This document shows, one piece after another, positions 17,526 to 32,055 of a stretch of DNA of 63,861 bases. How positions within the stretch are numbered: position 1 is the stretch's first letter; each line of letters starts with the position of its first letter. Both the position numbers and the translations under genes were made by a program. The DNA comes from Halococcus morrhuae DSM 1307 (GTDB lineage Archaea; Halobacteriota; Halobacteria; Halobacteriales; Halococcaceae). The notes below the pieces were generated by a model. It searched no databases and was not told the origin of the DNA. It saw only the letters and a program-made list of their open reading frames with translations. The stretch covers positions 23,189 to 87,049 of the forward strand of contig NZ_AOMC01000074.1 in NCBI RefSeq assembly GCF_000336695.1, written 5' to 3'.

Positions 17526-18614
17526 GTGATCGAACCGGGACCGGAATCGGATTCGGGGTTGCTCGACCGCGAGGAGCTCTCGAACGTCGAGAAGTGGTTA
17601 GCGCCGGCCGTCGGCGTCGTCGTCGTGCTCGTCCTGCTGGCCGGCGTGGGCTTTCTCGTCACCGACTATCTCGGCGGCACTCCGAGCGGCCCGGACGACG
17701 CTGACCGCGCTGGCGTCGCCGCCCCGGGGAACAACACGACGACCGCGGCGACCACCACGAACGCCACGGCGACGACCGCCCAGCCGACCGCGACGACCGC
17801 GGCGACCACCACGACAGCCACGCCGACCCCAACACCGACGGCAACTGATACGCCGACGGACACACCGACCGAGACGGAAACCCCGACGCCGACCGAAACC
17901 GATACAGAAACACCGACCGCGACGCCAACGCCGGAACCGACGGCCACGGCGACGCCGACGTCCGAGGCGACCGAAACGCCGACGGAGACGCCCACGCCAA
18001 CCCCGACGCCGACCGAAACGGCAACCCCCACGGAAACGCCGACGGCAACCGAAACGCCGACGCCAACTGATACGCCGCCACCGGAGGCGGCCGCCCAGAG
18101 TGCGACGGAGACGACCTCCCAAACGACGACCGACGAACCGACGACCGAAGCCGAAACCCAAACCGCGACGAGTTCTGCGACGACCACGACCTCAACAGCG
18201 ACGGCCACGGACGCGCCGACAGCGGAGGCGACCGAAACGCCGACGCCGACCGACACGCCACCGCCGGAGACGGACAGCCAACGCGCGAGCGAATCCACCG
18301 AATCATCGAGCGAAACCCCGACCGACGAACCAACGACCGAGACGCCGACCGAAACCCCTTCTCCGACGGAAACGTCGACCGCGACGCCGACTTCGACGCC
18401 AACCGCAACTCAAACTCCGACAGCTACCGCGGCCGAGACATCAACGCCAACTCCGACTGACTCGGCAGCGACGGCTGCGACTGCCGAGACGGTGAGTCAG
18501 ACAGCAGAACCGACGACGCAGACGGCGGAGCCAACAGCGGAACGCACGACGACAGCAACGCAGACGGCGACCGCAACCACGACCGCGACGCGTAGTTCCG
18601 CAACGGCAGCCTAA
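17526..18614 (+). CDS. Membrane-anchored Thr/Pro-rich mucin-like stalk protein
   Basis: About 362 residues if read from the GTG at 17526 ([11 protein letters not shown]). A short acidic cytoplasmic head is followed by one transmembrane helix (about residues 22-42). Beyond residue 60 nearly everything is Thr, Pro, Ala, Glu and Ser in TPTPT-like runs, with a few NTT/NAT sequons. No folded domain is visible. It is probably a glycosylated extracellular stalk or spacer. The codon pattern produces imperfect CCGACG-like repeats, so length may vary between strains. The gene converges on folCP with a 4-base overlap of the two ends. Confidence 0.6.
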
Positions 18615-21058
18615 TGATGTGAGCCATCGAATTCGTTCGGCGCGTTCGCCGCCTCGCTGACGCCGACGGCAGCGACGCTCTCGGCGACGTCGTGGACGCG
18701 GACGATGTCCGCACCACGCTCGGCGGCCAGCGCGCTCGCAGCCACCGTCGCCGACAGGCGATCGTTCGCCTCGCTGCCGACGAGATCGAACATCGACTTG
18801 TGCGAGTGACCGAACAGGATCGGGCAGTCGAGCGCGCGGAACTCGGCTAGACGGTCGAGGATCGCGAAGTTTTCCCGCTTGCTCTTGCCGAAGCCGATGC
18901 CGGGATCGACGATGATCTGCTCGCGGTCGAGGCCCGCCTTCTCGGCGAGCAGCACGCGCTCGCGCAGTTCGCGGATCGTGTCCCCGACCACGTCGTCGTA
19001 TTCGGGAGTCGAGTCGGGATCGACGGGTGCGTCGATGCTGTGCATCACGACGAGCGGGCAGTCGTAGTCGGCGGCGACGAACCGCATCTCCGGATCATCG
19101 AGCCCCGTGACGTCGTTGATGATGTCCGCGCCGGCACCGAGCGCCGCGCGCGCGACCGCCGCCTTCCGGGTGTCGATCGAGACGAGAGCGTCGAACTCCG
19201 CGATGCGCTCGATGACGGGAACTATCCGGTCGCACTCCTCCTCGTCCGAGACGGGTTCCGCGCCGGGGCGGGTGCTCTCGCCACCCACGTCGATGATGTC
19301 GACGCCTTCGTCGACCATCGTCTCGGCCTGCCGGACCGCTGCCTCCGTAGTATCGAACTCGCCGCCGTCGTGGAAGCTGTCGGGCGTCACGTTCAGAATT
19401 CCCATCACCGCCGTCCCCTCCTCCCAGGGGTAGCCCCGTACCTCCGGACTGACACCGATCGAGAGCGCCTCACGGATGTCGTCGGCGAGCGGTGCCAACC
19501 CGTAGGGCTGGCCGGCGAGTTTCTCGGTGAGACGTTTGAACTGCGCGAGCGTGGCGAGCATGAGCACGTCGAGCGATTCCTCGTCCTGATCGTTGAGCCC
19601 CGAGATCGAACACTCGCCGCCGAGCGAGAGCAGTTCCTCCTTGAGATACTGTGCCTGTCGCGGGCGCACGCGGGTCTTCAGCGCTCGATGGACGGCCTTG
19701 CCGCGCATCCGATAGGCCCCCGCGTCGGTCACGTGCGTCCCCTTGATCGCGCGCCGGGCGTCGTCGAGTCCGTCGATCTCCTTGGGGACGTCGAGGCGAC
19801 TCCAGCGCGTCCGTGCCTCGCGGACGACATAAAGTGAACCGCAGACGAGCACGCAGTCGTCCGGCTCGGTGGCATCGAGAGCGGTCTGGAGCGCGTCGGT
19901 GACGTCGCTGCTGGTCTCGACGCGACTGTCGTCGAACACCTCCGCGAGAACTGCGTTGTCCTCGGCGCGCGGGACGTCCGGCCGACAGGCGACGACGTGC
20001 TCGGGCGTCGGCAGCGCGTCGACCATTCCCCGGTGGTCCTTGTCCGCGAGCGCGCCGAACACGAGATGAAGGTTCTCGAAGTCGAACTCGTCGAGCGTGT
20101 CGGCGAGGCGCTCGCATGCACCAGGGTTGTGTGCACCGTCGAGCACCACCAATGGATCGCGTTCGAGAACTTCGAACCGACCGGGCCAGTAGGCCGCGCG
20201 CAACCCGCGCGCGAGCGCTTCCTCGCCACACTCGACGTCGAACTCATCGGTGACCTGTCGGGAGAGCGCCGCCGCGATGCCAGCGTTCTCGGCCTGATGA
20301 GCTCCAAGCAGGGAGAGTCGGGTCTCGACGGTCCAGTCCGCACCAGAGAGGCGAATAGCGTTCTCGACGCCCGTTCGGCCCTCGTGCGTTACCGAGACGT
20401 CACCATCCGGACCGACCGTCACGGCGTCGCCGGCGCTCTCATCGATGGCCGCGCGCGCGTCGCCGGTTGCGGCGGTCACGATATCGTTTTCGCGGGGCGC
20501 GACGGTGGCCATGTCGCGGCCGATCTCTCCAACCGTGTCGCCGAGCATGTCGGTGTGTTCGAGCGTGACGCTGGTGATGGCGCTGGCCACCGGATCGACG
20601 ACGCTGGTCGCGTCGTAGCGCCCGCCGAGACCGACTTCGAGCACGGCGACGTCGACCGACTGGCGGTGGAACTCCCACAGCGCCATCCCGGTGAGCACCT
20701 CGAAAAAGGTGGGTGCATCGCCGTCGGCGGCCCGATCCAGGACGTAAGGGCGGATCGTTGCGACGTAGTCGGCGAGCGCGCTCTCGGTGATCATGCGGCC
20801 GTCGACACGGACGCGCTCGCGGACGGAATCGAGATGTGGCGAGGTGTAGAGACCGACGTCGAGCCCCGCTTCTCGGAGCACTGATGCGACCATCCTGGCC
20901 GTGCTCCCCTTGCCATTGGAACCGGCGATCTGGACGAACGCGATCCCCTCGTGTGGATCGTCGAGAACGGAGAGCAGGTCGTCGGTGGCGTCCAGGCCCG
21001 GGCGGGGCGGATACCGACGCAGGTCGAAGAGGAAGTTTGCCGCCTCGTGGAACTCCAT
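18611..21058 (-). CDS. folCP: Bifunctional folylpolyglutamate/dihydrofolate synthase - dihydropteroate synthase
   Basis: An 815-residue fusion. The N-terminal FolC domain (to about residue 420) has the P-loop GSNGKGSTA near residue 44 and YTSPHLDSVRERV. The C-terminal FolP domain has GILNVTPDSFHDGGEF, DVGGESTRPGAEPVS, GFGKSKRENF and GHSHKSM. Between them, about 100 residues (YLKEELLSLGGEC to EKLAGQPYGL) resemble the N-terminal extension of long bacterial dihydropteroate synthases. FolC-FolP fusions are known in haloarchaea, where they make folates. The start is the ATG at 21058 (MEFHEAANF); a longer reading from 21118 is not family-like. Confidence 0.9.
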   Translation of the reverse strand: MEFHEAANFLFDLRRYPPRPGLDATDDLLSVLDDPHEGIAFVQIAGSNGKGSTARMVASVLREAGLDVGLYTSPHLDSVRERVRVDGRMITESALADYVATIRPYVLDRAADGDAPTFFEVLTGMALWEFHRQSVDVAVLEVGLGGRYDATSVVDPVASAITSVTLEHTDMLGDTVGEIGRDMATVAPRENDIVTAATGDARAAIDESAGDAVTVGPDGDVSVTHEGRTGVENAIRLSGADWTVETRLSLLGAHQAENAGIAAALSRQVTDEFDVECGEEALARGLRAAYWPGRFEVLERDPLVVLDGAHNPGACERLADTLDEFDFENLHLVFGALADKDHRGMVDALPTPEHVVACRPDVPRAEDNAVLAEVFDDSRVETSSDVTDALQTALDATEPDDCVLVCGSLYVVREARTRWSRLDVPKEIDGLDDARRAIKGTHVTDAGAYRMRGKAVHRALKTRVRPRQAQYLKEELLSLGGECSISGLNDQDEESLDVLMLATLAQFKRLTEKLAGQPYGLAPLADDIREALSIGVSPEVRGYPWEEGTAVMGILNVTPDSFHDGGEFDTTEAAVRQAETMVDEGVDIIDVGGESTRPGAEPVSDEEECDRIVPVIERIAEFDALVSIDTRKAAVARAALGAGADIINDVTGLDDPEMRFVAADYDCPLVVMHSIDAPVDPDSTPEYDDVVGDTIRELRERVLLAEKAGLDREQIIVDPGIGFGKSKRENFAILDRLAEFRALDCPILFGHSHKSMFDLVGSEANDRLSATVAASALAAERGADIVRVHDVAESVAAVGVSEAANAPNEFDGSHH

Positions 21059-21187
21059 ATCTGACACCGGTGGGGCCGTGGTTTGAGCGTATCGGACGTT
21101 CCCGTTCACCGCTCGCACGACGACCGCCGCCGATATGGAAAACAGTGTTCACTACGACAGGCCGTTTTCCGTCGCAACGTGGCGGGA

Positions 21188-22036
21188 TCAGCAGTACGTC
21201 GATAGCGCCTCGTAGGCTTCGCTGGCGGCTCTGTCCGGTTCGTCGGGATAGGTGTAGAGTTCGAGCGTGGCGAACCCCTCGTAGCCGATCCCGTCAAGCG
21301 CGTCGAAGATCGCCCGGAAATCGAGATCGCCCTTGCCGGGGATGCGGTGGTAGTGTTTGCCGCGGACACCACCGACGATGTCCTCCAGATGGACGCCCGT
21401 GATGTGGCCCGCACACCGCCGGATCGCCTCCGCAGGATTCTCCCCGTAGACGGCCGCGTGGCCGACGTCGAGGTTGACGCCGAGCGCCTCGTAACCGACG
21501 TCCTCGATCAGTTCCAGGACCTCTTCAGTACACTCGACGAGCAGTTCGGGTTCGTATTCGATCCCCACCTCGACGTCGTGCTCGGCGGCGTATTCACAGA
21601 TCGTCCCGAGCGAGTCGAGCAGGTACTCGTAGGCCTGGTCCGGTTGATTTCCTGGCAGCGGGCGACCGGTGGCCAGACAGATCGCGGGCGCACCGACCTC
21701 GTCGGCGAGGTCGATAGCTCGCTTCGTGTAGTCGATACGCCACTCCCTCCCCTCGTCGTCGGCGGTGACGACGCTCGGGTCGAAAAAGGACGACGGCGGT
21801 GCATCGTCGTAGTAGCCCGTCGCGGTGTTCGCGTTGACGTTCGAAACGGCCAGCCCGGTGCTGTCGAGCGTATTCGACAGCTCTTCTCGATCGTCCTCGC
21901 CGAAATCGGGGAAGTAGGCGTGTGGCTCGTCACCTAAAATCTCGACGCCAGCGTAGCCGTGCTCGGCGATGCGTTCGACCGCGTCCGGCAGCGCGTGGCG
22001 CGTGTAGGCGTTCGTCGAAAATGCCAGTTCGACCAT
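21188..22036 (-). CDS. Sugar phosphate isomerase/epimerase, EboE-like TIM barrel (copy 2)
   Basis: A 282-residue AP-endonuclease-2-type TIM barrel starting MVELAFSTNAYTR. Metal-site landmarks are Glu in GIEYEPELLVE, Asp/His in NLDVGHAAV, HLEDI and the last-strand Glu in TLELYTYP. It is a paralogue of the gene at 23007-23837, sharing the motifs HLEDI, GY(D/E)GF and VELYxY. It lies 42 bp after the UbiA-type gene on the same strand, the last gene of the four-gene ebo-like run. The reaction is unknown; cyclitol or sugar isomerisation, epimerisation or dehydration is the family norm. An upstream ATG at 22066 is less likely. Confidence 0.75.
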   Translation of the reverse strand: MVELAFSTNAYTRHALPDAVERIAEHGYAGVEILGDEPHAYFPDFGEDDREELSNTLDSTGLAVSNVNANTATGYYDDAPPSSFFDPSVVTADDEGREWRIDYTKRAIDLADEVGAPAICLATGRPLPGNQPDQAYEYLLDSLGTICEYAAEHDVEVGIEYEPELLVECTEEVLELIEDVGYEALGVNLDVGHAAVYGENPAEAIRRCAGHITGVHLEDIVGGVRGKHYHRIPGKGDLDFRAIFDALDGIGYEGFATLELYTYPDEPDRAASEAYEALSTYC

Positions 22037-22078
22037 GGCGAAGGCAGGGCCGGCCTCCCGAAACACCTTCCGACGATG

Positions 22079-23020
22079 TTACGAGACGTCGAACAGACGG
22101 GAGAGGCCGACTGCGGGGATGAGAAAGACGAGGACGGCGAGTGCCCACTCGACGCCCGCGAGCGCCGCGAACGCCCCATCGAGCACGACGAGCGCGAGGA
22201 TACAGGTCCCGACCGCCGGGCCGACGGTATCGGGTCGGGGAGTCGCGTACGCCGGCCCGAGCGCGCGCCCAGTCCAGACCAGGAAGCCACCAGTGAGTCC
22301 GACCGCGAACGCGGTCCGGACGAGCGACGGCCCGGTCGTCACGACCGCCGCGAGCACGCCGAGAACGGCCAGCAACACGCCCGCGGCCGCCGCCGCGACC
22401 GCACCGCGCTCGGTCGTCGTCGCCTCGTTGTCGGCCATGTACGTCACGGCAGCGATATACAGCGCGATGGCGACCGGGATCGCGAGCGCCCACGCGGGAA
22501 GCGGGGCTGTCGCCGCCGTCGCCCCCGCCGCCGTACCGAGCAGTACGTCGAGCCCGCGCGCGCTACCCATCGCGAGAAATCCGGCAGGGCTTCCCTTGAG
22601 AACGCCGTCATAGAGCGCGATGACGGTCGCAAGCGCTGCCGCGAACAGCCCGGCTCGTGGTCCGGCGGCCCCGAGCGCGACGAGAACACCGCCGATCAGC
22701 AGCGTCGCGCCGAGCGCGCCCGCCGTCCGACGTGGAATCCTGCCCGATGGGATCGGTCGTTCCGGTCGCTCGCGCGCGTCGATCGCCGCGTCGAAGTAGT
22801 CGTTCAGCGTCGTGCCGCCGGCGTACAGCAACATCGACGCGACCGCGAGCCCGGCGAGTGCAGGTATCGAAACCGTCGTTCCTGTGGCGGCGACGAGCGC
22901 ACCACCGAGCAGGATATCTGGTGGGGTGCTGAAGAGGTTCGGAACGCGCACCAGCGCTGCGTAGGCTGCGAGTTTCCCGCGCGAGTCGGCCTCGCGCGCG
23001 GCTCCCTCAGACCCACCCAC
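22079..23020 (-). CDS. UbiA-family prenyltransferase, EboC-like
   Basis: A 313-residue polytopic membrane protein with about eight or nine transmembrane helices. The first Asp-rich motif is NDYFDAAID at residues 73-81, followed by ARERPERPIPSGR, the prenyl-diphosphate Mg site of UbiA enzymes. The second motif region reads YDGVLKGSPAGFLAMGSARGLDVLLG, close to the EboC-type pattern rather than to menaquinone, heme or archaeol synthases. The start overlaps the preceding isomerase gene by 14 bases. Neighbours suggest that the prenyl acceptor or transported product is a cyclitol or related polar compound; this is inference. Confidence 0.8.
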   Translation of the reverse strand: MGGSEGAAREADSRGKLAAYAALVRVPNLFSTPPDILLGGALVAATGTTVSIPALAGLAVASMLLYAGGTTLNDYFDAAIDARERPERPIPSGRIPRRTAGALGATLLIGGVLVALGAAGPRAGLFAAALATVIALYDGVLKGSPAGFLAMGSARGLDVLLGTAAGATAATAPLPAWALAIPVAIALYIAAVTYMADNEATTTERGAVAAAAAGVLLAVLGVLAAVVTTGPSLVRTAFAVGLTGGFLVWTGRALGPAYATPRPDTVGPAVGTCILALVVLDGAFAALAGVEWALAVLVFLIPAVGLSRLFDVS

Positions 23021-23837
23021 CGTCTTCGAGGTAGGCCATCGCCTCGCGGGCGGTCTCGGCCGCCGTCTCCTCGTACGGGTAGAGCTCGACCGTCACGAAC
23101 CCGTCGTAGCCTCGCGAATCGAGCGCACTGAGGAACTCGCCGATCGGTAGCGCGCCGTCGCCGAGTTGGGTGTGTTCGTGGCGGCGATTCTCGGGGATGT
23201 CCTCAAGATGAACGTGATCGACGTACTCGGCGAGCCGATCGAACGCTGCCACGGGATTCTCGCCGACGCTGAACAGGTGGCCAGCGTCGAAGTTGCAGCG
23301 AATCCGGGGATGGTCGATGCGCTCGGCGAACTCTAAGAATTCCTCCGAAGTCTCGATGAGCAGGTCCGGTTCGGGTTCGACGTGCAGATCCACCCCTACC
23401 TCCTCGGCGATCGGCAGGACTGCTTCGAGGCTCTCGACGAACGTCTCGACCGCCCACTCGCGGGATTTTTCCTCCGGGATGGGGCCACCGGGTTCGATCG
23501 AGATGTAGTCGTGGTCGAGTTCGGCCGCCGTCCGAAGGGCAGCTTTCGTGTAATCGATGCGCTTCTGGCGGTAGTCCGTGTCCGGTTCGATGTAGGAGGG
23601 ATGGTGGAACCCCTCGATGGCCGTCAGCATGAACGCGTTGCAGTTGCCGATGGCGAGATCGTTCGCGTCGAGGGCTTGCCTGATCTCCTCGATATCGTCC
23701 TCGCTCGCGTCGGGCGGGTAGAGGTGGGGCTCGTCGAACAGCAGTTCGATGCCGTTGTAGCCCGCATCGGCGACGATCTCGATCGCCTCGCCTGCGTCAT
23801 ACTCGCGAAAGGCGTTCGCGGAGAAGCCGAACTTCAT
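23007..23837 (-). CDS. Sugar phosphate isomerase/epimerase, EboE-like TIM barrel (copy 1)
   Basis: A 276-residue TIM barrel beginning MKFGFSANAFREYDAGEAIE. Metal and substrate residues expected for the IolE/IolI/xylose-isomerase-like family appear as SIEPGGPI, HVEPEPDLLIE, NFDAGHLFS, VHLEDI and TVELYPY. The ATG at 23837 overlaps the stop of the TatD gene by 4 bases (ATGA). A much longer reading frame upstream is spurious. It is second in the eboB-eboE-eboC-like run. The exact substrate is unknown. Confidence 0.8.
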   Translation of the reverse strand: MKFGFSANAFREYDAGEAIEIVADAGYNGIELLFDEPHLYPPDASEDDIEEIRQALDANDLAIGNCNAFMLTAIEGFHHPSYIEPDTDYRQKRIDYTKAALRTAAELDHDYISIEPGGPIPEEKSREWAVETFVESLEAVLPIAEEVGVDLHVEPEPDLLIETSEEFLEFAERIDHPRIRCNFDAGHLFSVGENPVAAFDRLAEYVDHVHLEDIPENRRHEHTQLGDGALPIGEFLSALDSRGYDGFVTVELYPYEETAAETAREAMAYLEDGGWV

Positions 23838-24634
23838 CGTTCGTAGGTGAAGTTCGGCGACTGGTCGAAGAACTCGTAGGGGTTGTCGAAGACGACCTTC
23901 TTCACGTCCTCGCGATCCCAGCCCCGATCGAGCATCTTGTCGCGCGCCTTGGGGACCGCGAGCGGGTCCGAGGGGTCCCAGTCGGCGGCGCTGTTGAACA
24001 GCATCTTGTCGGTGCCGTACTCTTCGAGGAGGTCGATGGCCGCCTCGTCCTCGATCTTGCCGGGGTAGAGCGTGAACCCGACCCAGCAGTCCGTGGTGAG
24101 GGAGGTCTCGATCGTCTCTGCGGTGTTGTGGTCGATGACGATGCGTTCCTGGGTGACGCCCTCGTCTTCGATGATGTCGACGATGCGCTCGGTGCCCTCG
24201 GGTTTGTCCGTGTGAGGTGTGTGGATGATGACGGGGAGCTCGCGCTCCTCGGCCATCCGCAACTGGGTGCGGAACGCCCACTCCTCGTCGTCGGTGCCCT
24301 GGTCGAACCCGATCTCGCCGAGGCCGACGACGTTCTCGCGGTCGAGATACTCCGGCAGGCGATCGAGGACCTCCTCGGCCATCTCGCGGTAGTTCGCCTC
24401 CTTCGGTTCGAGGCCGATCGTTACATAGTGATCCATCCCGCCGGCGCGCTCGGCGCGCGCGGTCTCGAAGTCGATGATCTGCTCGAAGTAGTCGAAAAAC
24501 GAGCCCGCGTGCCGTTTGTCCGTACCGCTCCAGAACGCGGGTTCGATGCAGCACTCGATGCCGGCCCGACGCGCCCGTGCGTAGTCGTCGGCCGAGCGCG
24601 AGACCATGTGCATGTGCGGATCGATGATCTCCAT
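23834..24634 (-). CDS. TatD-family metal-dependent hydrolase, EboB-like
   Basis: A 266-residue amidohydrolase-fold protein. Metal ligands are HxH at residues 7 and 9 in IDPHMHMVSR, Glu in GLGEIGFDQG, His in VIIHTPH, His in VIDHNTA and Asp in SAADWDPSD. The N-terminal DPHMHMVSRSADDY and IEPAFWSG segments are, to my knowledge, characteristic of the EboB branch rather than of nuclease TatD. It is the first gene of the minus-strand operon, with a TATA-like element and a palindrome upstream. The reaction is unknown. Confidence 0.8.
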   Translation of the reverse strand: MEIIDPHMHMVSRSADDYARARRAGIECCIEPAFWSGTDKRHAGSFFDYFEQIIDFETARAERAGGMDHYVTIGLEPKEANYREMAEEVLDRLPEYLDRENVVGLGEIGFDQGTDDEEWAFRTQLRMAEERELPVIIHTPHTDKPEGTERIVDIIEDEGVTQERIVIDHNTAETIETSLTTDCWVGFTLYPGKIEDEAAIDLLEEYGTDKMLFNSAADWDPSDPLAVPKARDKMLDRGWDREDVKKVVFDNPYEFFDQSPNFTYER

Positions 24635-24663
24635 GTCCGCGAGTGGGTGCCGGACGCACTACT

Positions 24664-24680
24664 ATGTACTGATCGTACAT
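24664..24680. promoter_or_regulatory. Candidate operator palindrome before the ebo-like operon
   Basis: ATGTACTGATCGTACAT has perfect 6-bp arms around a 5-bp centre. It lies 30-46 bp upstream of the TatD start and overlaps the probable TATA/BRE region (TACATAGTA on the minus strand). A regulator bound here would block TBP/TFB loading. No matching copy was noticed before the divergent inositol-phosphate synthase gene. Confidence 0.5.
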
Positions 24681-24724
24681 TCTCGGGTCGCGATCCGACT
24701 CCCATTATGGCGGTTGGCGCGCGC

Positions 24725-24907
24725 TCGCGCTCGTGTGCGAGCCAAGCGAGCACACGAGCGCGAACACTGCGCGAGGGATGAGCACCGCAGCGAGCGAAGC
24801 GAGGCGCGAACAGCGTGAGCGCCTCGATGCGAACGGGGAGGGACGACCCGTGAGCGAAGCGAGCGAGGAGCGCAGTCGGCTGGGGAGGTATGTGGGCTGT
24901 TGCGGTT
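24725..24907 (+). repeat. Structured intergenic repeat, copy A
   Basis: This element lies in the 512-bp divergent gap between the TatD and inositol-phosphate synthase genes. A 14-bp perfect stem (24725-24738 with 24750-24763) closes the 11-nt loop GAGCCAAGCGA. A second stem, CGAGGCGC/GCGCCTCG (24800-24826), closes the loop GAACAGCGTGA. The element ends in GGGGAGGTATGTGGGCTGT, a tail shared with copies at 33796-33915 and 35501-35622. The remainder of the gap, 24908-25146, shows no ORF and no clear TATA box. Confidence 0.75.
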
Positions 24908-25146
24908 CTCATTTGAGTCAGGATTCGTCGCGTTGGGGTCGCTGCTGTGGAACTAATTGATCATCCCGCAAAACCATCCGGCCAACGATCGAACAGTTCG
25001 GTGCCGACATCACAAAGTAGGTGTGTCTCGGAATCGTGGTTTGAGAGGATGCAGCGACGGACTTCCGAGCCGATCGGAAAACAGGGGATCGAATCGCAAT
25101 CGAATCGGGATGGACGATCGAACGCCACGACGGTCGGGTGGTCGCG

Positions 25147-26376
25147 ATGAGCGCGAGCATCGGGGTTTGGCTCGTCGGCGCACGCGGGAACGTCGCCACG
25201 ACGGCGATGATCGGTGCACGCGCCATCGCCCACGGCGCGACCGACACGACGGGGATGGTCACCGAGCGCGCGCCGTGTACGGACCTCGATCTGCCATCCG
25301 TCGACTCGCTGGTCTTCGGCGGTCACGACGTCCAGGACGGCAGCGTCGCCGAGACGGCCGAGCGCCTCGCGGAGCGCAACGGCATTCCCGATCGCGCGAC
25401 GCTCGACGCCGTTCGTGACGATCTCGCCGTGATCGACGAGCGCATCGAGACCGGCACGGCACGCAACTGCGGGCAGGCGGTCGAGAAACTCGCCGACGGG
25501 GAAACTGACGAATCGCTCTCGCTGCGGGCGATCGTCGGGGACATCCAGGATGACTACGAGAGGTTTCGCGAGGCGAACGATTTGGAGCGGGTCGTCGTCA
25601 TCAACGTCGCCTCCTCCGAACCGTTGCCGGCCGATCCCGAGAAGTACGACTCGATCGAGGCCATCGAGCGCGCGCTCGACGAGGACGAACCGCTGCCGGC
25701 GAGTTCGCTGTACGCCTACGCCGCGCTTGCCGGCGGCCATCCGTTCGTGAACTTCACGCCGAACGCCGCGAACGCGCTCGGTGGATTGCACGAGCTGGCC
25801 GAGCGTGAGGGCGTCCCGCACATGGGCAAGGACGGCAAGACGGGCGAGACACTGATGAAATCCACGCTCGCGCCGATGTTCGCTCAGCGCAATCTCCGGG
25901 TGCGCTCGTGGGAGGGTCACAACATCCTCGGGAACAAAGACGGTGAAGTGCTTGAGGACGATGCAAACAAAGCTGGAAAGTTGGCGAGCAAGGGTGGTGT
26001 GCTCGATGGCATCCTCGACGAGGACCTCCACAACCGGGTCCGAATCGACTACACGCCCGCGCTCGGCGACTGGAAGACCGCGTGGGACGACATCCGTTTT
26101 CGCGGCTTTCTCGACACGGACATGAAGCTCCAGTTCACCTGGGAGGGCTCCGATTCGGCGCTCGCCGCGCCGCTCGTGCTCGATCTCGCGCGATTGCTCG
26201 CGTTCGCCGACGAACAGGGCGAGTCGGGACTGCAGCCCCAGCTCGCTTCCTTCTTCAAAGCGCCGCTCGGCGTCGACGAACACGGCCTCTCGAAACAGTT
26301 CGGGATGCTTGAAGAGTACGTCGAAGCACACACCGCACGGCCGACCGCGGTCGGCGCGGAGGACGGCGATGACTGA
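25147..26376 (+). CDS. ino1: myo-Inositol-1-phosphate synthase (sugar-phosphate cyclase)
   Basis: A 409-residue NAD-dependent cyclase converting glucose 6-phosphate to inositol 1(3)-phosphate. It has the N-terminal dinucleotide motif VWLVGARGNVATT, the family block MGKDGKTGETLMKS, and the signature GHNILGNKDGEVLEDD followed by KAGKL. The ATG at 25147 is chosen; an in-frame GTG at 25138 is possible. It overlaps the EboF-like gene by 8 bases and diverges from the EboB/E/C-like run. This position suggests that it stands in for EboD, the sugar-phosphate cyclase of bacterial ebo clusters. It may also feed inositol phospholipid synthesis. Confidence 0.9.
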   Translation: MSASIGVWLVGARGNVATTAMIGARAIAHGATDTTGMVTERAPCTDLDLPSVDSLVFGGHDVQDGSVAETAERLAERNGIPDRATLDAVRDDLAVIDERIETGTARNCGQAVEKLADGETDESLSLRAIVGDIQDDYERFREANDLERVVVINVASSEPLPADPEKYDSIEAIERALDEDEPLPASSLYAYAALAGGHPFVNFTPNAANALGGLHELAEREGVPHMGKDGKTGETLMKSTLAPMFAQRNLRVRSWEGHNILGNKDGEVLEDDANKAGKLASKGGVLDGILDEDLHNRVRIDYTPALGDWKTAWDDIRFRGFLDTDMKLQFTWEGSDSALAAPLVLDLARLLAFADEQGESGLQPQLASFFKAPLGVDEHGLSKQFGMLEEYVEAHTARPTAVGAEDGDD

Positions 26377-27721
26377 CAACGACGCGGGACGGGCGATCGT
26401 CCTCGACGTGATCGGGCTCGAACGCGAGCACGTCGAGTCGGGGCTCGCGCCGAACATCGCCGATCTCGTGGCCGACGGCGCGCGTGCGGACCTCCAGTCA
26501 CCGTTCCCGGCCGTGACGCTGCCCGTCCAGAGCACGCTCGCCACAGGTCAATCGCCCGCAAACCACGGCGACGTGGCCAACGGCGAGTACGACAGGGAGA
26601 ACGACACGGCGGCGCTCTGGGAGCGCGACAGCGAGAGCCGGGATCGCCTCTGGGAGAGCGCGAGCGAGGCGGGGCTCACTACTGGAGTGTTCTGCTTCCA
26701 GCATCTCATCGGCACGACGGCGGACGTCGCGCTCACGCCCTCGCCGATCGAGGACGAGGAGAACAACATCCTGGAGATGAACTGCTGGACCAACCCCGAC
26801 GGATTTTACGACGAGCTCGAAGCCGAATACGGCCACTTCCCGCTCCACACGTACTGGGGTCCCGGCGCGAACGAGGAATCGACCGCGTGGATCCTCGACG
26901 CCGCCCGCGAGGCCATCGACCGCTACGATCCCGACCTGCTCTGGATCTACATCCCGTATCTCGACTACGCCGGACTGGCCCACGGCGCGAGCAGCGACGA
27001 ACTCCGCGAGGCGATCGGCGTCGCCGACGAGCTCGTCGGAGACTTCCTCGACTTCCTGCGCGCTGACGAGCGCTGGGGTGAAACAGCAGTGAACGTCGTC
27101 AGCGAGTACGGCTTCCACGATGTCGACACACCCGTGTTCCCGAACCGCGCGCTACGCGAGGCCGGACTGCTCTCGGTTCAGGACGATGGCGAGGGCGGCG
27201 AGGAACTCGATCTGCCGAATTCGCGGGCGTTCGCGCTGGTCGACCATCAGGTGACCCACGTCTACGCCGACGAGGACGTCGTCGACGAGGCACGTGAGGC
27301 GCTCACCGGACTCGATGGCGTCGAACGCGTGCTCGGCGAGGAAGGAAAAAAAGAGTACGGCGTCGCCCATCCGAACGCCGGCGACCTCGTCTGCGTTGCC
27401 GAGCGATCGGGCTGGTTCCAGTATTACTGGTGGTTCGACGACGCGAACGCACCGTACTACGCCCGCGACATGGATATCCACGCGAAACCCGGCTTCGATC
27501 CCGTCGAACTGTTCTTCGGCGACGAGGGGCTCGTCTCGCTCGATGCCTCGAAGGTCGGCGGGTCGCACGGTCGCGCCGACGTCGACGGGTTCTACGGGCT
27601 GGGCGGTCCCGCCGCCCCCGACTCGGTGCCCGACGACGTGGACGCACGGACGGTCGCGCCAACGCTGACCGACCTGCTCGATATCGAAGTCGAAACGGCA
27701 TTCGAGCGCGACGCGCTGTAA
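26369..27721 (+). CDS. Alkaline-phosphatase-superfamily phosphodiesterase, EboF-like
   Basis: A 450-residue metalloenzyme of the nucleotide pyrophosphatase/phosphodiesterase type. The metal Asp is in VLDVIG, and the nucleophile is Thr50 in FPAVTLPVQSTLATG, followed by SPANHGDVANGEYD. Further landmarks are IYIPYLDYAGLAHG, SEYGFHDV and HGRADVDGFYG. It has no signal peptide or membrane helix. It is translationally coupled to the inositol-phosphate synthase gene by an 8-base overlap. EboF proteins are annotated in this family, and a phosphomonoester or diester of the cluster's product is the natural substrate guess. Only 4 bp separate its stop from the convergent sugar dehydrogenase. Confidence 0.8.
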   Translation: MTDNDAGRAIVLDVIGLEREHVESGLAPNIADLVADGARADLQSPFPAVTLPVQSTLATGQSPANHGDVANGEYDRENDTAALWERDSESRDRLWESASEAGLTTGVFCFQHLIGTTADVALTPSPIEDEENNILEMNCWTNPDGFYDELEAEYGHFPLHTYWGPGANEESTAWILDAAREAIDRYDPDLLWIYIPYLDYAGLAHGASSDELREAIGVADELVGDFLDFLRADERWGETAVNVVSEYGFHDVDTPVFPNRALREAGLLSVQDDGEGGEELDLPNSRAFALVDHQVTHVYADEDVVDEAREALTGLDGVERVLGEEGKKEYGVAHPNAGDLVCVAERSGWFQYYWWFDDANAPYYARDMDIHAKPGFDPVELFFGDEGLVSLDASKVGGSHGRADVDGFYGLGGPAAPDSVPDDVDARTVAPTLTDLLDIEVETAFERDAL

Positions 27722-27725
27722 AAAT

Positions 27726-29777
27726 CTATTCTTTGCGTCCGGACAGCAACCGGGCCGCACCGATCGTCAGCCCCGACAGCGCCGCCAGGACGCCGAACCC
27801 GGGGCCGGAGTCGCTGCTCGTCCCCGCCGACACGCCGCCTTCGCCGCCCGCCTGCGTCCCCTCGGTCGCCGTCCGTGGGCTCGTCCCGTCAGTCGACGAT
27901 GTCGTGGCGTCTGTCCGGCCGACCCCGGTCGTCCCGGCGGCCGTCGTGTTCGTGGTGGCCGTCGCATTCAGGGTTGTCGCCGAGCCGTTCGGGGCGGTCG
28001 CGTTGCCAGTCGCGGTCGCTCCCTGGGATTGGGGTGGCACGATACGGTGGACCGCGCCGGTCGCCTCGCTGCCCGGATTCGCAGTCGTCAACACGTAGAG
28101 CCGGTCGTCGTTGTCGCGGCCCATCGCGAGGATGTAGCCGCCGACGAACCCGCTGTCGGTGTTCTCGACCGAGAGCTCCGCGATGTCCCAGAGACCGTCG
28201 TCCTCGGCGGGCGTGGCCGCCAGCAGCGACCCCGTCGGCGTCTCGGTCTCCTTCGATTTGCGGAAGTCGCCGAAGACGTAGTCGCCCTGGAGCTCGGGGA
28301 TCGCGTCGCGCTGGTAGAGATAGCCCCCCATGGCTGCCGAACCGACACCCTGCCCGTCGGCGCTGTGTGGATACTCGATCACGGGATCGATGAGCTGTTC
28401 GCCGCCACGCACGTCCGACGGGAGTTTGCTCGGGCAGTTCTCGGGCGGGTTGCGACTGCCCTCGGGACCGGGTTTGAAACAATGAGTCCCCTCACGGACG
28501 TTCCACCCGTAGTTCTTGTTCTTCTCGACGATATCGATCTCCTCGAACCCGTTCTGGCCGACGTCGGAGGTGAACAGCTTCCCGTCGGAAAAGCCCATCC
28601 GCCACGGGTTACGGAACCCCCACGCGAACTGCTCGTTCAGTCCGTCCCTCCCCACGAGCGGGTTGTCGTCGGGAATCCCGTAGGCCTTGTCGCCCTCCTG
28701 GCTGTCGACGTCGATGCGCAGGATCGAGCCGAGCAGGTTCTCGGTGACGTCCTGGCCGTTGCCACCCTCGTTGCGGTCGTACCAGTCGCTGACGTGACCC
28801 AGGTCGGTGTCGTGTGCGCCGCCACCGTCGCCCATCGCCACGTAGAGATAGCCGTCGTCGGGCCCGAAGACGATCGCGCCGGCGTTGTGCGTGTCGTACG
28901 GCGAGGGGATTTCGAGGATCGTCCGTTCCGAGTCGACGTTCCCGGTCGAGCCGTCCTCGCTCGCCTCGAACTCGGAGAGCACCTCGGTGTGCGAGAACTC
29001 GTCGGGCGTCCCCTCCCGCGAGGGGGCGCTGTATCGCAGGTAGAACTTCCGGTTGTCCGCGAAGTTCGGATGAAACGCCATCCCGAGCAGCCCCATCTCG
29101 CCAGTGATCTCGGTCAGCTGCTCGCTCACGTCGATGAACGGCTCCTCGTTCAGGCTTCCCGACTCGTGGACGTAGACCTGTCCGATGCGATCGGCAATGA
29201 AGTAGCGACCGCTCTCGCCCGGCGGGACGCCGAAATCGAGCGGTGCGGTGAGTGTCCCCTCCGTCACCGTCTCGATGCGCACCGTCGGACCGTCACCGAA
29301 ATACGATGACGAGCCGCCGCTCTCGGTCGTGGTCCGGGTTGCGGTCTCCTCGCCGAAGGCGATCGAGCCGTGCATCGAGCTTCGGTGTGGCTCACAGATG
29401 TACTCGGCCATCTCCTCGCGCGCGGTGAATGCGATCGTCTGGGTCGCGCCCTGCTCGTTCATCACTTCGGTGCGCTTGAGCACCTCACCCTTATCGTCGA
29501 GCAACGCGATGTTGTGGCCCTGGCCATCGATGTTCTTCCAGGTGATGCGGTAGTCGACGCCGGCGTCGAGCTGGAGCGTCGGATTGCTCTCGCCGGCGAT
29601 CGATTCGGGCTTGCGACCCTTCCAGCCGCCGATCTCGCCGCCGAGACGGATCTGCGTCGGCTGGGACTGTGCACCCGCGATCCCCCCTGCACCGACGAGC
29701 GCACCGGCCGCCGCGCTCGCGCGGAGGAATCGTCTGCGGGTCGTTGCGTGTCGGTCTGTCGCGGCGTTCGTTCTCAT
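27726..29777 (-). CDS. Secreted cupredoxin / PQQ-type sugar dehydrogenase with PGF-CTERM anchor (copy 1)
   Basis: A 683-residue exported protein. Order: Tat signal (TTRRRFLRASAAAGALVGAG, about residues 12-31), then a cupredoxin-like domain with copper-ligand candidates His in GHNIAL and Cys, His and Met in YICEPHRSSMHG. A six-bladed glucose/sorbosone dehydrogenase propeller follows (GLLGMAFHPNFADNRKFY, NAGAIVFGPD, WGFRNPWRMGF, GYNYGWNVREG-like). Then come a Thr/Ala-rich linker and a C-terminal PGFGVLAALSG-helix-RK archaeosortase signal. Copper and dehydrogenase domains in one chain suggest direct electron transfer to the membrane chain. The start ATG at 29777 is chosen over one at 29846. Confidence 0.85.
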   Translation of the reverse strand: MRTNAATDRHATTRRRFLRASAAAGALVGAGGIAGAQSQPTQIRLGGEIGGWKGRKPESIAGESNPTLQLDAGVDYRITWKNIDGQGHNIALLDDKGEVLKRTEVMNEQGATQTIAFTAREEMAEYICEPHRSSMHGSIAFGEETATRTTTESGGSSSYFGDGPTVRIETVTEGTLTAPLDFGVPPGESGRYFIADRIGQVYVHESGSLNEEPFIDVSEQLTEITGEMGLLGMAFHPNFADNRKFYLRYSAPSREGTPDEFSHTEVLSEFEASEDGSTGNVDSERTILEIPSPYDTHNAGAIVFGPDDGYLYVAMGDGGGAHDTDLGHVSDWYDRNEGGNGQDVTENLLGSILRIDVDSQEGDKAYGIPDDNPLVGRDGLNEQFAWGFRNPWRMGFSDGKLFTSDVGQNGFEEIDIVEKNKNYGWNVREGTHCFKPGPEGSRNPPENCPSKLPSDVRGGEQLIDPVIEYPHSADGQGVGSAAMGGYLYQRDAIPELQGDYVFGDFRKSKETETPTGSLLAATPAEDDGLWDIAELSVENTDSGFVGGYILAMGRDNDDRLYVLTTANPGSEATGAVHRIVPPQSQGATATGNATAPNGSATTLNATATTNTTAAGTTGVGRTDATTSSTDGTSPRTATEGTQAGGEGGVSAGTSSDSGPGFGVLAALSGLTIGAARLLSGRKE

Positions 29778-29842
29778 TGATGTCTCGCTGTCGTCGGTCG
29801 GATCGTCGCGGTGCTGGGATGGGGTCGAACGGCCACGGCGGC

Positions 29843-31885
29843 TCATCGATCGTCACCATCCAGCAGGCGTGCGACGCCGAGCGCGATCGCGGCGAGCCCG
29901 GCGAGAATGCCGAATCCCGGCCCGTCGCCGCTCACGATACCGCCGCTCTCGCCCGTCCGTGCCGTGTCCGACTCGTTCGTCGTCTCGGTCGGCGTTGCCG
30001 TCGCCGTTGCCGTTGCGGTCGGTGTCGGCGTCGGTTCGGGAGTCGCCGTCGCGGTCGCCGGTCGAGCTGGCGTCTCGGTCGTCGCGGTCGAGCGTTCCTC
30101 GGCCTCCGGTGGCCGAAGACGATGGACGGCACCCGTCTCACCCTCGACGCCGAGGTTGTCGGTCGTCAGCGCGTAGAGCTCGCCGTCGTTATCGCGGGCG
30201 ACACAGAGGAGATAGGCACCGAGCTCGCCGTTCTCGCCGTTGCCGATCGAGATCTCCTCGACCGACCACGAGTCGCCCTCGACTGGCGTGGCGGCGAACA
30301 GCGATCCGCGTGGTGTGCCGTCCTTGCTGTAATCGCCGAACACGTACTTGTTTCGAAGACCGGGAATGGTCGCGTTCCGGTAGATGTAGCCGCCGATGAC
30401 GGCGACGCCGACGCCGTTCGTCTCGTAGGTGTGCGGATACTCGATCACGGGATCGATGAGCGGCTCCCCGCCGCGGACGTTCGGCGGCGTCTTCGTGGGA
30501 CAGTTGGCGCGATACGGGTCCGATCCCTGCGTGGCGACGAAACAGTGGCCGCCCTCGCGGACGTTCCAGCCGTAGTTGCCACCCTTGCGAACGACGTTGA
30601 CCTCCTCGTAACGGCGCTGACCGACGTCGGCGGCCATCAGCTTCCCGTCAGAGAAGCCGATGCGCCACGGGTTGCGAAAGCCCCAGGCGTAGTGTTCGTC
30701 CAGACCCTCTTTGCCGACGAGCGGGTTGTCGCCGGGGATGCCGTAGGCCTTGTCGCCGTCGCGGCCATCGACGTCGATGCGCAGGATCGATCCCATGAGG
30801 TTCTGAGTGACGTCCTGGCCGTTGCCGCCGAGGTTCGCACCGTACCAGTCGTCGGGCTGTTTCGACGATTTGAGTGCGCCGCCGCCGTTGCCGATGCCGA
30901 TATACAGGTAGTCGTCGGGCCCGAAGACGATCGCGCCGCCGTTGTGCGTGTAGTACGGCGAGGGGATTTCGAGGATCGTCCGCTGGGAGTCCGCGACCGC
31001 CCCAGTCACATCCTCGTTGGCTTCGAACTCGGCGATGACCTGCGTATGCGTGTAGTTCCCGGGCGTTCCGGGGCGTGATTTGGCGCTGAAGTGGACGTAG
31101 AACTTCCGATTGTCCGCGAAGTTCGGATGAAAGGCCAGCCCGAGCAGCCCGCGTTCATCGATCGTCTTGATCTCGGGGAGGTTGTCGAAATCGATGAGCT
31201 GATCGCGCACGTCGAGGAAGACGTCGCCGCCGCTGCCGTCGGCCCCGTACCGACGGATGACGCCGATCTGGTCGACGATGAAGAACGCGTCGCGCTCGCC
31301 GGGTGGGGCTTCGAGCCCGAGCGGGGCGGTGATGCCGCCGTCGACGACGGTATCGGTCCTGACCGTCGGGCCCGTCGGGAAGAACCCCTCCGGCTCGCTC
31401 GATTCGGCCGTCGTCGTCTCGGTCGTGCCGCTCTCGCTCGACAGCGTGATGTCGCCGCGCATCGAGTTGAGGTGGGCCTGACAGACGTACTCGTCCATCG
31501 CCTCGGTCGCCGTGAACTCCAGTGTCTGCGTCTGCCCCTCGTCGGACATGTACTGGGTGCGCTCGATGACGGCGTCGTCGGCATCGAGCAGGGCGACGTT
31601 GTGCTGTGCGCCGTCGACGTTCTTCCACGTCAGTCGGTAGGTCGTCCCGATGTCGAGTTCGAGCGTTGGGTTGGTCGTCCCCTGAATCCCAGAGGGCTTG
31701 CGACCGACCCAACCGGTCGTCTCGCCGCCGAGACGGATCGTCTCGGGCTGGGACTGGGCGCGTGCACCCGTGATGCTTCCGACGCCGGCGAGACCGGTCA
31801 CGCCGGCAGCGGTGGCAGCGAGAAAGCGCCGGCGGGAGGGCCGACCGGACGGAATGGAGGTCTCTCCGTTGGTTCCCTTCGTCAT
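29843..31885 (-). CDS. Secreted cupredoxin / PQQ-type sugar dehydrogenase with PGF-CTERM anchor (copy 2)
   Basis: A 680-residue paralogue of the downstream gene, in tandem with a 65-bp gap. The Tat signal is PSRRRFLAATAAGVTGLAG. The cupredoxin segment keeps the His in QHNVAL and reads YVCQAHLNSMRG in the ligand loop, retaining Cys, His and Met. The propeller reads GLLGLAFHPNFADNRKFYV and WGFRNPWRIGF. A Thr/Pro-rich linker leads to DGPGFGILAGLAAIALGVARLL, a clear PGF-CTERM. The ATG at 31885 is preferred over the GTG at 31891. The 170-bp gap upstream (31886-32055) shows no gene. Confidence 0.85.
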   Translation of the reverse strand: MTKGTNGETSIPSGRPSRRRFLAATAAGVTGLAGVGSITGARAQSQPETIRLGGETTGWVGRKPSGIQGTTNPTLELDIGTTYRLTWKNVDGAQHNVALLDADDAVIERTQYMSDEGQTQTLEFTATEAMDEYVCQAHLNSMRGDITLSSESGTTETTTAESSEPEGFFPTGPTVRTDTVVDGGITAPLGLEAPPGERDAFFIVDQIGVIRRYGADGSGGDVFLDVRDQLIDFDNLPEIKTIDERGLLGLAFHPNFADNRKFYVHFSAKSRPGTPGNYTHTQVIAEFEANEDVTGAVADSQRTILEIPSPYYTHNGGAIVFGPDDYLYIGIGNGGGALKSSKQPDDWYGANLGGNGQDVTQNLMGSILRIDVDGRDGDKAYGIPGDNPLVGKEGLDEHYAWGFRNPWRIGFSDGKLMAADVGQRRYEEVNVVRKGGNYGWNVREGGHCFVATQGSDPYRANCPTKTPPNVRGGEPLIDPVIEYPHTYETNGVGVAVIGGYIYRNATIPGLRNKYVFGDYSKDGTPRGSLFAATPVEGDSWSVEEISIGNGENGELGAYLLCVARDNDGELYALTTDNLGVEGETGAVHRLRPPEAEERSTATTETPARPATATATPEPTPTPTATATATATPTETTNESDTARTGESGGIVSGDGPGFGILAGLAAIALGVARLLDGDDR

Positions 31886-32055
31886 GATCACTCCCGGACC
31901 GCTCGTCGCACGGTGGCGGTGCCGGTGACTGTCTGAACGGGGGGTCGGTGCTCACTTAGGGGTTGTGATACGCCCATCAGCCGACGGAAATCGCCCCGCT
32001 AAGAACTGAACACCGCGATCGTCGAACACCCCTCCGTTCACCCATTCTCGCCCGT

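Follow-up and report, generated by a model that had tools for sequence, protein, structure and literature searches.

The ebo operon (eboA-F) has been described in Bacteroidota, Cyanobacteriota, Pseudomonadota, Deinococcota and the plastids of eustigmatophyte algae, with an unrelated gene, eboG, in place of eboA in Deinococcus (PMC5133447). An isoprenoid-cyclitol product has been proposed for the operon (PMC5133447), as has a lipid carrier that would aid the movement of the scytonemin monomer to the periplasm (PMC6282210). Here, we analyzed a six-gene cluster at positions 21188-27721 of a 63,861-nt contig stretch (hereafter the window; NZ_AOMC01000074.1) from the assembly of the haloarchaeon Halococcus morrhuae DSM 1307 (2.99 Mb, 167 contigs). 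Like the ebo operon, the cluster holds relatives of EboB, EboC and EboF in a tightly packed arrangement. It differs in that EboA, EboD and EboE were not found, in that it encodes a myo-inositol-1-phosphate synthase (Ino1) and two short TIM-barrel proteins (TIM1 and TIM2), and in that its genes form two divergent operons. We favor, with somewhat more confidence than doubt, the reading that this locus represents, in a haloarchaeon, an Ino1-type variant of ebo, in which an Ino1-derived cyclitol would be fed to the EboB/EboC/EboF module. The window shows the features by which we recognize this variant: Ino1 lies in the cluster, EboD was not found, and an isomerase accompanies the remaining ebo genes.

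Relatives of EboB, EboC and EboF in Halococcus

The six adjacent open reading frames (ORFs) form two divergent, densely packed groups at the coordinates reported in an earlier note on this DNA, and a Pfam search of the six proteins upheld every broad family name. For comparison with known systems, Ebo profiles were built solely from bacterial clusters containing EboD, with archaea and Ino1-type clusters kept out. The TatD/amidohydrolase-family hydrolase of the window (266 aa; 23834-24634, minus strand; Pfam TatD_DNase) scored 338 bits on the EboB profile, compared with 27 bits for E. coli YcfH. On the EboF profile, run without a non-Ebo control, the type I phosphodiesterase/phosphohydrolase (450 aa; 26369-27721, plus strand; Pfam Phosphodiest) reached 330 bits. 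The UbiA prenyltransferase (313 aa; 22079-23020, minus strand; Pfam UbiA) scored 185.6 bits on a profile from 42 EboD-type EboC proteins, compared with 73 bits for digeranylgeranylglyceryl phosphate (DGGGP) synthase, the best other UbiA protein of the genome. Its top NCBIfam family was EboC (NF035940; 175.7 bits, positions 1-291 of 292), slightly ahead of the SCO3242-family prenyltransferases (NF045897; 164 bits, below the cut-off of 260). On NF035940, two other haloarchaeal UbiA proteins scored 178 bits each and the DGGGP synthase paralogue 71. Motif I of the prenyltransferase (N73, D74, D77, D81) is kept in 59/59 ebo loci, and the second Asp-rich motif is replaced, with T193 in 59/59 and E199 in 56/59 loci.

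We compared 14 haloarchaeal UbiA loci, taken from 10 genomes and four named plasmids (Halocatena, Haladaptatus, Natronococcus and Halobaculum). In the EboB tree, 81 cluster TatD proteins separated from E. coli TatD and YcfH with support 100/99, and the 14 haloarchaeal TatD proteins were sister (98/92) to that of L048, a deltaproteobacterial metagenome-assembled genome (MAG); the window and L048 proteins are 53% identical. A first quick tree had placed a second TatD protein of the window genome (L148) inside the Ebo group. Because this protein has no phmmer match to Ebo TatD proteins, we considered the placement artefactual and excluded L148 from the main EboB tree. The haloarchaeal UbiA proteins formed a clade (99) placed with bacterial Ebo proteins. 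For EboF, where the only outgroup of the tree was one stray relative from another haloarchaeal genome (G020), an alignment of 10 sequences has a common C-terminal signature (WF.YY.W, AP, IH.KPG.DP.E.F).

The nearest solved structures were AF_1765 (3guw, 144 bits) for the EboB profile and phosphodiesterase-nucleotide pyrophosphatases (62 bits) for the EboF profile. Taken together, these sequence comparisons identify the window TatD, UbiA and phosphodiesterase, very probably, as EboB, EboC and EboF family members, in agreement with the likeness that the earlier note had proposed for all three. The profile scores tie the cluster to ebo by homology rather than convergence.

As a separate observation, G020 encodes a lone EboF-like protein (L179 9274-10707) that scores higher against bacterial EboF (388 bits) than against the window EboF (233 bits); no other ebo genes were found in the 19.9 kb surrounding it.

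Distribution of Ino1 and EboD among ebo clusters

Of 444 loci in a scan for EboB relatives, the 80 best were analyzed; this sample is biased and has no haloarchaeal members. Gene presence was judged within at most 9 kb on each side, often less near contig ends, and by score thresholds chosen after inspection of the score list. Among these 80 loci, 42 contained EboD, 16 contained Ino1 and none contained both, while 22 had neither within the stretch. A TIM-barrel isomerase was present in 16/16 Ino1 loci versus 0/42 EboD loci. EboA was found in 15/16 Ino1 loci; the EboA queries included a Deinococcus small protein (probably EboG), which was the best query in 1/42 EboD loci and in no Ino1 locus. 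Most Ino1 loci behind this exclusion pattern come from one phylum: 15/16 are actinobacterial, one of them (L098) counted on a 69-bit Ino1 piece at a contig start, and the remaining one is L048.

The plasmid of Streptomyces sp. NBC_00826 illustrates the actinobacterial form, with the order Ino1, SCO3242-family UbiA, isomerase, EboA, TatD, EboE and EboF, and no EboD. A Gemmatirosa record in the plasmid collection carries Ino1, isomerase, EboB, EboC, EboE and EboF, and the L048 cluster reads Ino1-TIM-TatD-UbiA. The earlier note had presented the exchange of cyclases as that of an archaeal cluster. The exchange is not confined to archaea: Ino1 and an isomerase likewise occur, without EboD, in actinobacterial ebo clusters that contain EboA and EboE. 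The haloarchaeal and actinobacterial clusters thus share Ino1, an isomerase, the lack of EboD and the retention of EboB, EboC and EboF. They differ in that EboA and EboE are retained in actinobacteria, whereas the haloarchaeal clusters contain a further short TIM barrel in their place. The closest bacterial kin that we found is L048, with its sister TatD and a TIM-barrel protein within the TIM1 clade; unlike the window cluster, it lies on one strand, and neither EboF nor a second TIM barrel was seen within 13 kb.

Since EboD and Ino1 exclude each other, Ino1 and the isomerase jointly seem to do the job of EboD, and we consider it likely that they stand in its place functionally. Ino1-type Gemmatirosa and EboD-type Deinococcus are sisters in the EboB tree (100/97), which argues that the exchange probably occurred more than once, and the starred branches force at least three changes of the bacterial Ino1 label.

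An isomerase without either cyclase in the stretch was seen in L051, L052, L076 and L113. In three actinobacteria, isomerase and EboA are joined in a single ORF (L071 7043-9001, L093 6534-8933 and L110 6875-9001); actinobacterial fusions of this kind are mentioned in the available portion of PMC5133447, there without mention of Ino1. Two further loci came up in the scan. An EboB-like TatD gene (244 bits) lies at L122 8986-9807 on a contig named Nitrososphaerales archaeon TH5894, with no other ebo genes found within 9.8 kb. L057, a MAG titled Rickettsia typhi (a doubtful label), carries EboB, EboF and a piece of EboD; the term 'ebo operon' occurs 19 times in a study of Rickettsiales from eustigmatophyte algae (PMC6092422).

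Ino1 and its relatives

Ino1 converts glucose 6-phosphate to inositol 1-phosphate. The window protein (412 aa; 25138-26376, plus strand, with a possible later ATG at 25147) carries both Ino1 Pfam domains and was, as stated in the earlier note, the sole sugar-phosphate cyclase seen in the cluster. It matched Archaeoglobus fulgidus Ino1 (1u1i) in a phmmer search over nearly its full length (315 bits, residues 10-394 of 412). The residues that we take to be the catalytic lysines (K281, K285, K313 and K374) agree between the two proteins and are kept in 29/29 aligned Ino1 proteins from ebo loci; K285 aligns with the residue altered from K to A in 3qvw. Based on these lysines and the Archaeoglobus match, the window Ino1 is probably an ordinary inositol-phosphate synthase.

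In the Ino1 tree, the haloarchaeal and actinobacterial ebo proteins and that of L048 formed one group (30 rows, 99/96), while 26 Ino1 proteins from other archaea of the phylum formed a separate clade (96/83). A Halomarina Ino1 from outside ebo was nested among the haloarchaeal ebo proteins. The set included just three bacterial Ino1 proteins from outside ebo clusters.

Conservation across Halobacteria

Searches with UbiA, Ino1 and the phosphodiesterase matched the identical 10/116 Halobacteria genomes, distributed over 7/45 genera and four family codes. At the limits used, none of the 116 genomes had just one or two of the three proteins. TatD, TIM2 and UbiA occurred together in all 14 haloarchaeal loci, EboF and TIM1 in 13 each and Ino1 in 12. 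The divergent two-operon layout was kept in 11/14 loci, so that the two operons are for the most part conserved together. In G024, TIM1 has moved to the opposite side of the cluster, and all six genes of the Natronococcus locus share one strand.

TIM-barrel proteins and Ebo genes not found

Both short TIM barrels are xylose-isomerase-like: TIM1 (282 aa; 21188-22036, minus strand) matched Pfam AP_endonuc_2 with 152 bits and TIM2 (276 aa; 23007-23837, minus strand) with 168 bits. The earlier note had likened both to EboE. We rejected this assignment, since they scored at most 20 bits on the EboE profile and fell into separate clades in the TIM tree; the NCBIfam EboE family (NF035939) gave 24 and 30 bits, with a cut-off of 250. 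Instead, 13 haloarchaeal TIM1 proteins formed a clade with the isomerases from the L048 and L051 clusters (Shimodaira-Hasegawa-like approximate likelihood ratio test 99). The L048 isomerase adjoins Ino1; that of L051 is encoded at a contig start, and Ino1 was not seen there. TIM2 formed a haloarchaeal clade (97) apart from EboE, and may be a stand-in for it. The phylogenies are thus compatible with an ebo affiliation for TatD and, less firmly, for UbiA, and place the TIM barrels outside EboE.

Among solved structures, MJ1311 matched TIM1 (79 bits) and TIM2 (81 bits), IolI matched both, and ketose 3-epimerases matched TIM1. Together with those for EboB and EboF, these matches would point to reaction types, not to substrates. 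A third, more distant TIM-barrel protein lies near the cluster in 4/14 haloarchaeal loci (L013 9887-10942, L032 13871-14872, L044 and L045), in some cases with an apparent twin-arginine translocation (Tat) signal by eye.

EboE was not found in the 14 haloarchaeal loci (best 20 bits), the search being confined to these loci and not extended to whole haloarchaeal genomes. A profile search of the same loci also failed to find EboD, as the earlier note had observed for the six-gene cluster. The dehydroquinate (DHQ) synthase family (PF01761) had no match in the 10 cluster-bearing Halobacteria genomes; its weak matches (21-25 bits, two above cut-off) were confined to 12 other genomes of the 116. The EboA family NF035938 matched 0/116 Halobacteria genomes, in a run in which no control genome matched either; in a positive control it matched 2/4 records, missing Deinococcus and Gemmatirosa. 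Our EboA profile and the Deinococcus small protein had no match in the haloarchaeal loci, so that family and profile searches concur with the failure to see EboA from the sequence alone. There is no space left for an additional gene within either window operon.

Gene layout and neighboring genes

In the minus-strand group, TatD and TIM2 overlap by 4 nt, TIM2 and UbiA overlap by 14 nt, and a gap of 42 nt separates UbiA from TIM1. On the plus strand, Ino1 and the phosphodiesterase overlap by 8 nt. According to the coordinates of the flanking genes, a region of 503 bp (24635-25137) lies between the divergent operons and presumably holds both promoters. In a three-genome alignment, of which the L038 stretch is probably not a matching one, no conserved element was established in this region beyond the TatD start.

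Next to the cluster, at 27726-31891 on the minus strand, two adjoining genes encode glucose/sorbosone dehydrogenases that look secreted and carry a copper-binding domain. Genes of this phmmer group were seen in 6/14 haloarchaeal ebo loci, within the stretch covered for each. In L048, a weakly matching relative (23.6 bits against a cut-off of 25) and a cytochrome c come ahead of Ino1. On the other side, judged by eye from its motifs, the long frame at 18611-21118 (minus strand) is presumably a folylpolyglutamate synthase-dihydropteroate synthase fusion.

Discussion

A pathway for the window cluster would begin with Ino1, which would make inositol 1-phosphate from glucose 6-phosphate. TIM1, perhaps together with TIM2, may then isomerize inositol 1-phosphate or a keto form of it. 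UbiA-family enzymes attach prenyl chains to acceptors; decaprenylphosphoryl-phosphoribose synthase, an enzyme of this family, couples a polyprenyl phosphate to a sugar phosphate. Its use of polyprenyl phosphate is noted in connection with ebo (PMC5133447). Within the membrane, the EboC-like UbiA could correspondingly link a polyprenyl chain to the cyclitol, free or phosphorylated. The phosphate would be taken off by the EboF-like enzyme, and the EboB-like hydrolase would trim the product. The outcome might be a prenylated or lipid-linked cyclitol, serving as a small molecule or as a carrier. Such a product is a tentative proposal, and its sequence of cyclization, isomerization, prenylation and dephosphorylation follows the scheme that the earlier note had inferred.

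No transaldolase was found in the window genome, and its only transketolase candidate was one borderline 22-bit match. Sedoheptulose 7-phosphate, the proposed EboD precursor, may therefore be scarce in this organism, although the indication is weak; a cyclase using glucose 6-phosphate would then bypass that need. The mutual exclusion of two unrelated ring-forming enzymes in the same cluster suggests that a cyclitol is a likely needed building block. On a broader scale, one may imagine that actinobacteria, a gemmatimonadote, a deltaproteobacterial MAG and haloarchaea carry an alternative form of the ebo pathway. In this form, inositol 1-phosphate from Ino1 and the isomerase would replace the EboD product derived from sedoheptulose 7-phosphate, and the ebo product would be a polyprenyl-linked cyclitol. 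We put this general scheme forward with some reserve, as we do the lipid-linked product.

Three other explanations were weighed against the Ino1-type ebo variant. The earlier note had favored convergence, in which the UbiA protein, the TatD hydrolase and the isomerases would merely resemble the ebo set and would have been recruited independently by an archaeal inositol pathway. TIM1 and TIM2, two of the six proteins, are indeed not EboE, EboA and EboD were not found, and the UbiA proteins of ebo split weakly from their outgroups (76). Against this, profiles from EboD-type bacteria match the window EboB, EboC and EboF, the EboB group is separated with support 100/99, and the Ino1 tree joins the haloarchaeal proteins to those of bacterial ebo clusters, apart from 26 other archaeal ones. 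The bacterial locus L048 moreover has the same Ino1-TIM1-EboB-EboC set. With TatD, UbiA, phosphodiesterase and Ino1 all related to bacterial ebo proteins, we rejected convergence, which the Ino1 tree, the EboB tree and the EboD-type profile scores strongly disfavor and which we regard as highly improbable.

The two remaining alternatives accept the ebo genes and differ in the role of Ino1; both appear unlikely to us, to a similar degree. Ino1 might serve an ordinary supply of inositol, used in the head groups of lipids or to make a compatible solute, with the ebo-type module beside it by chance. Haloarchaeal polar lipids with a myo-inositol-derived head group have been reported (PMC8305020), and the Halomarina Ino1 (L015 7004-8248) adjoins a glycosyltransferase gene, away from any ebo cluster. 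The confinement of Ino1 to the 10/116 genomes that have the cluster UbiA argues against chance, as does its mutual exclusion with EboD in the best 80 of 444 EboB loci. Alternatively, the product could be a prenylated aromatic or other non-cyclitol compound, with Ino1 and the TIM barrels only supplying a cofactor or modifying a sugar unit. The EboC protein Ubi-297, which comes from marine Flavobacteria, can farnesylate 8-hydroxyquinoline-2-carboxylic acid in vitro (PMC9235831), and ebo genes have a role in the transport of the scytonemin monomer (PMC6282210). It is harder to see, under that explanation, why two unrelated cyclitol-forming enzymes alternate in one place of the cluster.

Several observations weigh against the Ino1-type ebo variant that we prefer. 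The window UbiA lies below the NF035940 cut-off (250), and the Ebo proteins split from other UbiA proteins with a support of just 76. The Ino1 of Gemmatirosa falls outside the ebo-Ino1 group, and the isomerases of actinobacteria and haloarchaea form separate clades. The starred branches of the EboB tree yield four independent pairs, too few for a test (p 0.5). L061 and L113 are ebo clusters without a cyclase within the stretch, L113 having an isomerase; none was seen in L051, L087 and L088 either, which lie near contig ends. Within haloarchaea, the Haladaptatus plasmid (L014) has the cluster without an adjoining Ino1, in a search that did not cover the chromosome. In G020, 242 kb separate Ino1 from UbiA and the Ino1 match contains one flagged TAA; no TIM1 was present in the stretch read, and EboF is represented only by a 39% relative on another contig. 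The Halomarina Ino1 belongs with these points. As for chemistry, the available portions of PMC5133447, PMC6282210 and PMC9235831 give no natural substrate or product for any Ebo enzyme. Ubi-297, the one EboC assayed, farnesylated quinolines, and its trials as described there comprised 14 aromatic acceptors and named no cyclitol (PMC9235831).

We found no description of an Ino1 form of ebo in the open literature, a search that left out subscription papers and preprints, and the available main text of PMC5133447, PMC6282210 and PMC9235831 does not contain the word 'inositol'. As judged from sequence, Ino1-type ebo thus appears to be an undescribed variant of a known cluster, homologous to ebo and extending beyond archaea. 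The ebo cluster is widespread over many phyla and algal plastids, and the portions of the literature available to us give no known product for it. Since the reaction of Ino1 is known, unlike that of EboD, the variant offers a new handle on this product. Haloarchaea and Streptomyces are tractable hosts, in which the ebo product can be sought experimentally. If our reading is true, ebo could run in a haloarchaeon despite the failure to find a transaldolase in its genome, the ring of the ebo product may come from either source, and the haloarchaeal clusters may make a new class of archaeal lipid-linked cyclitol.

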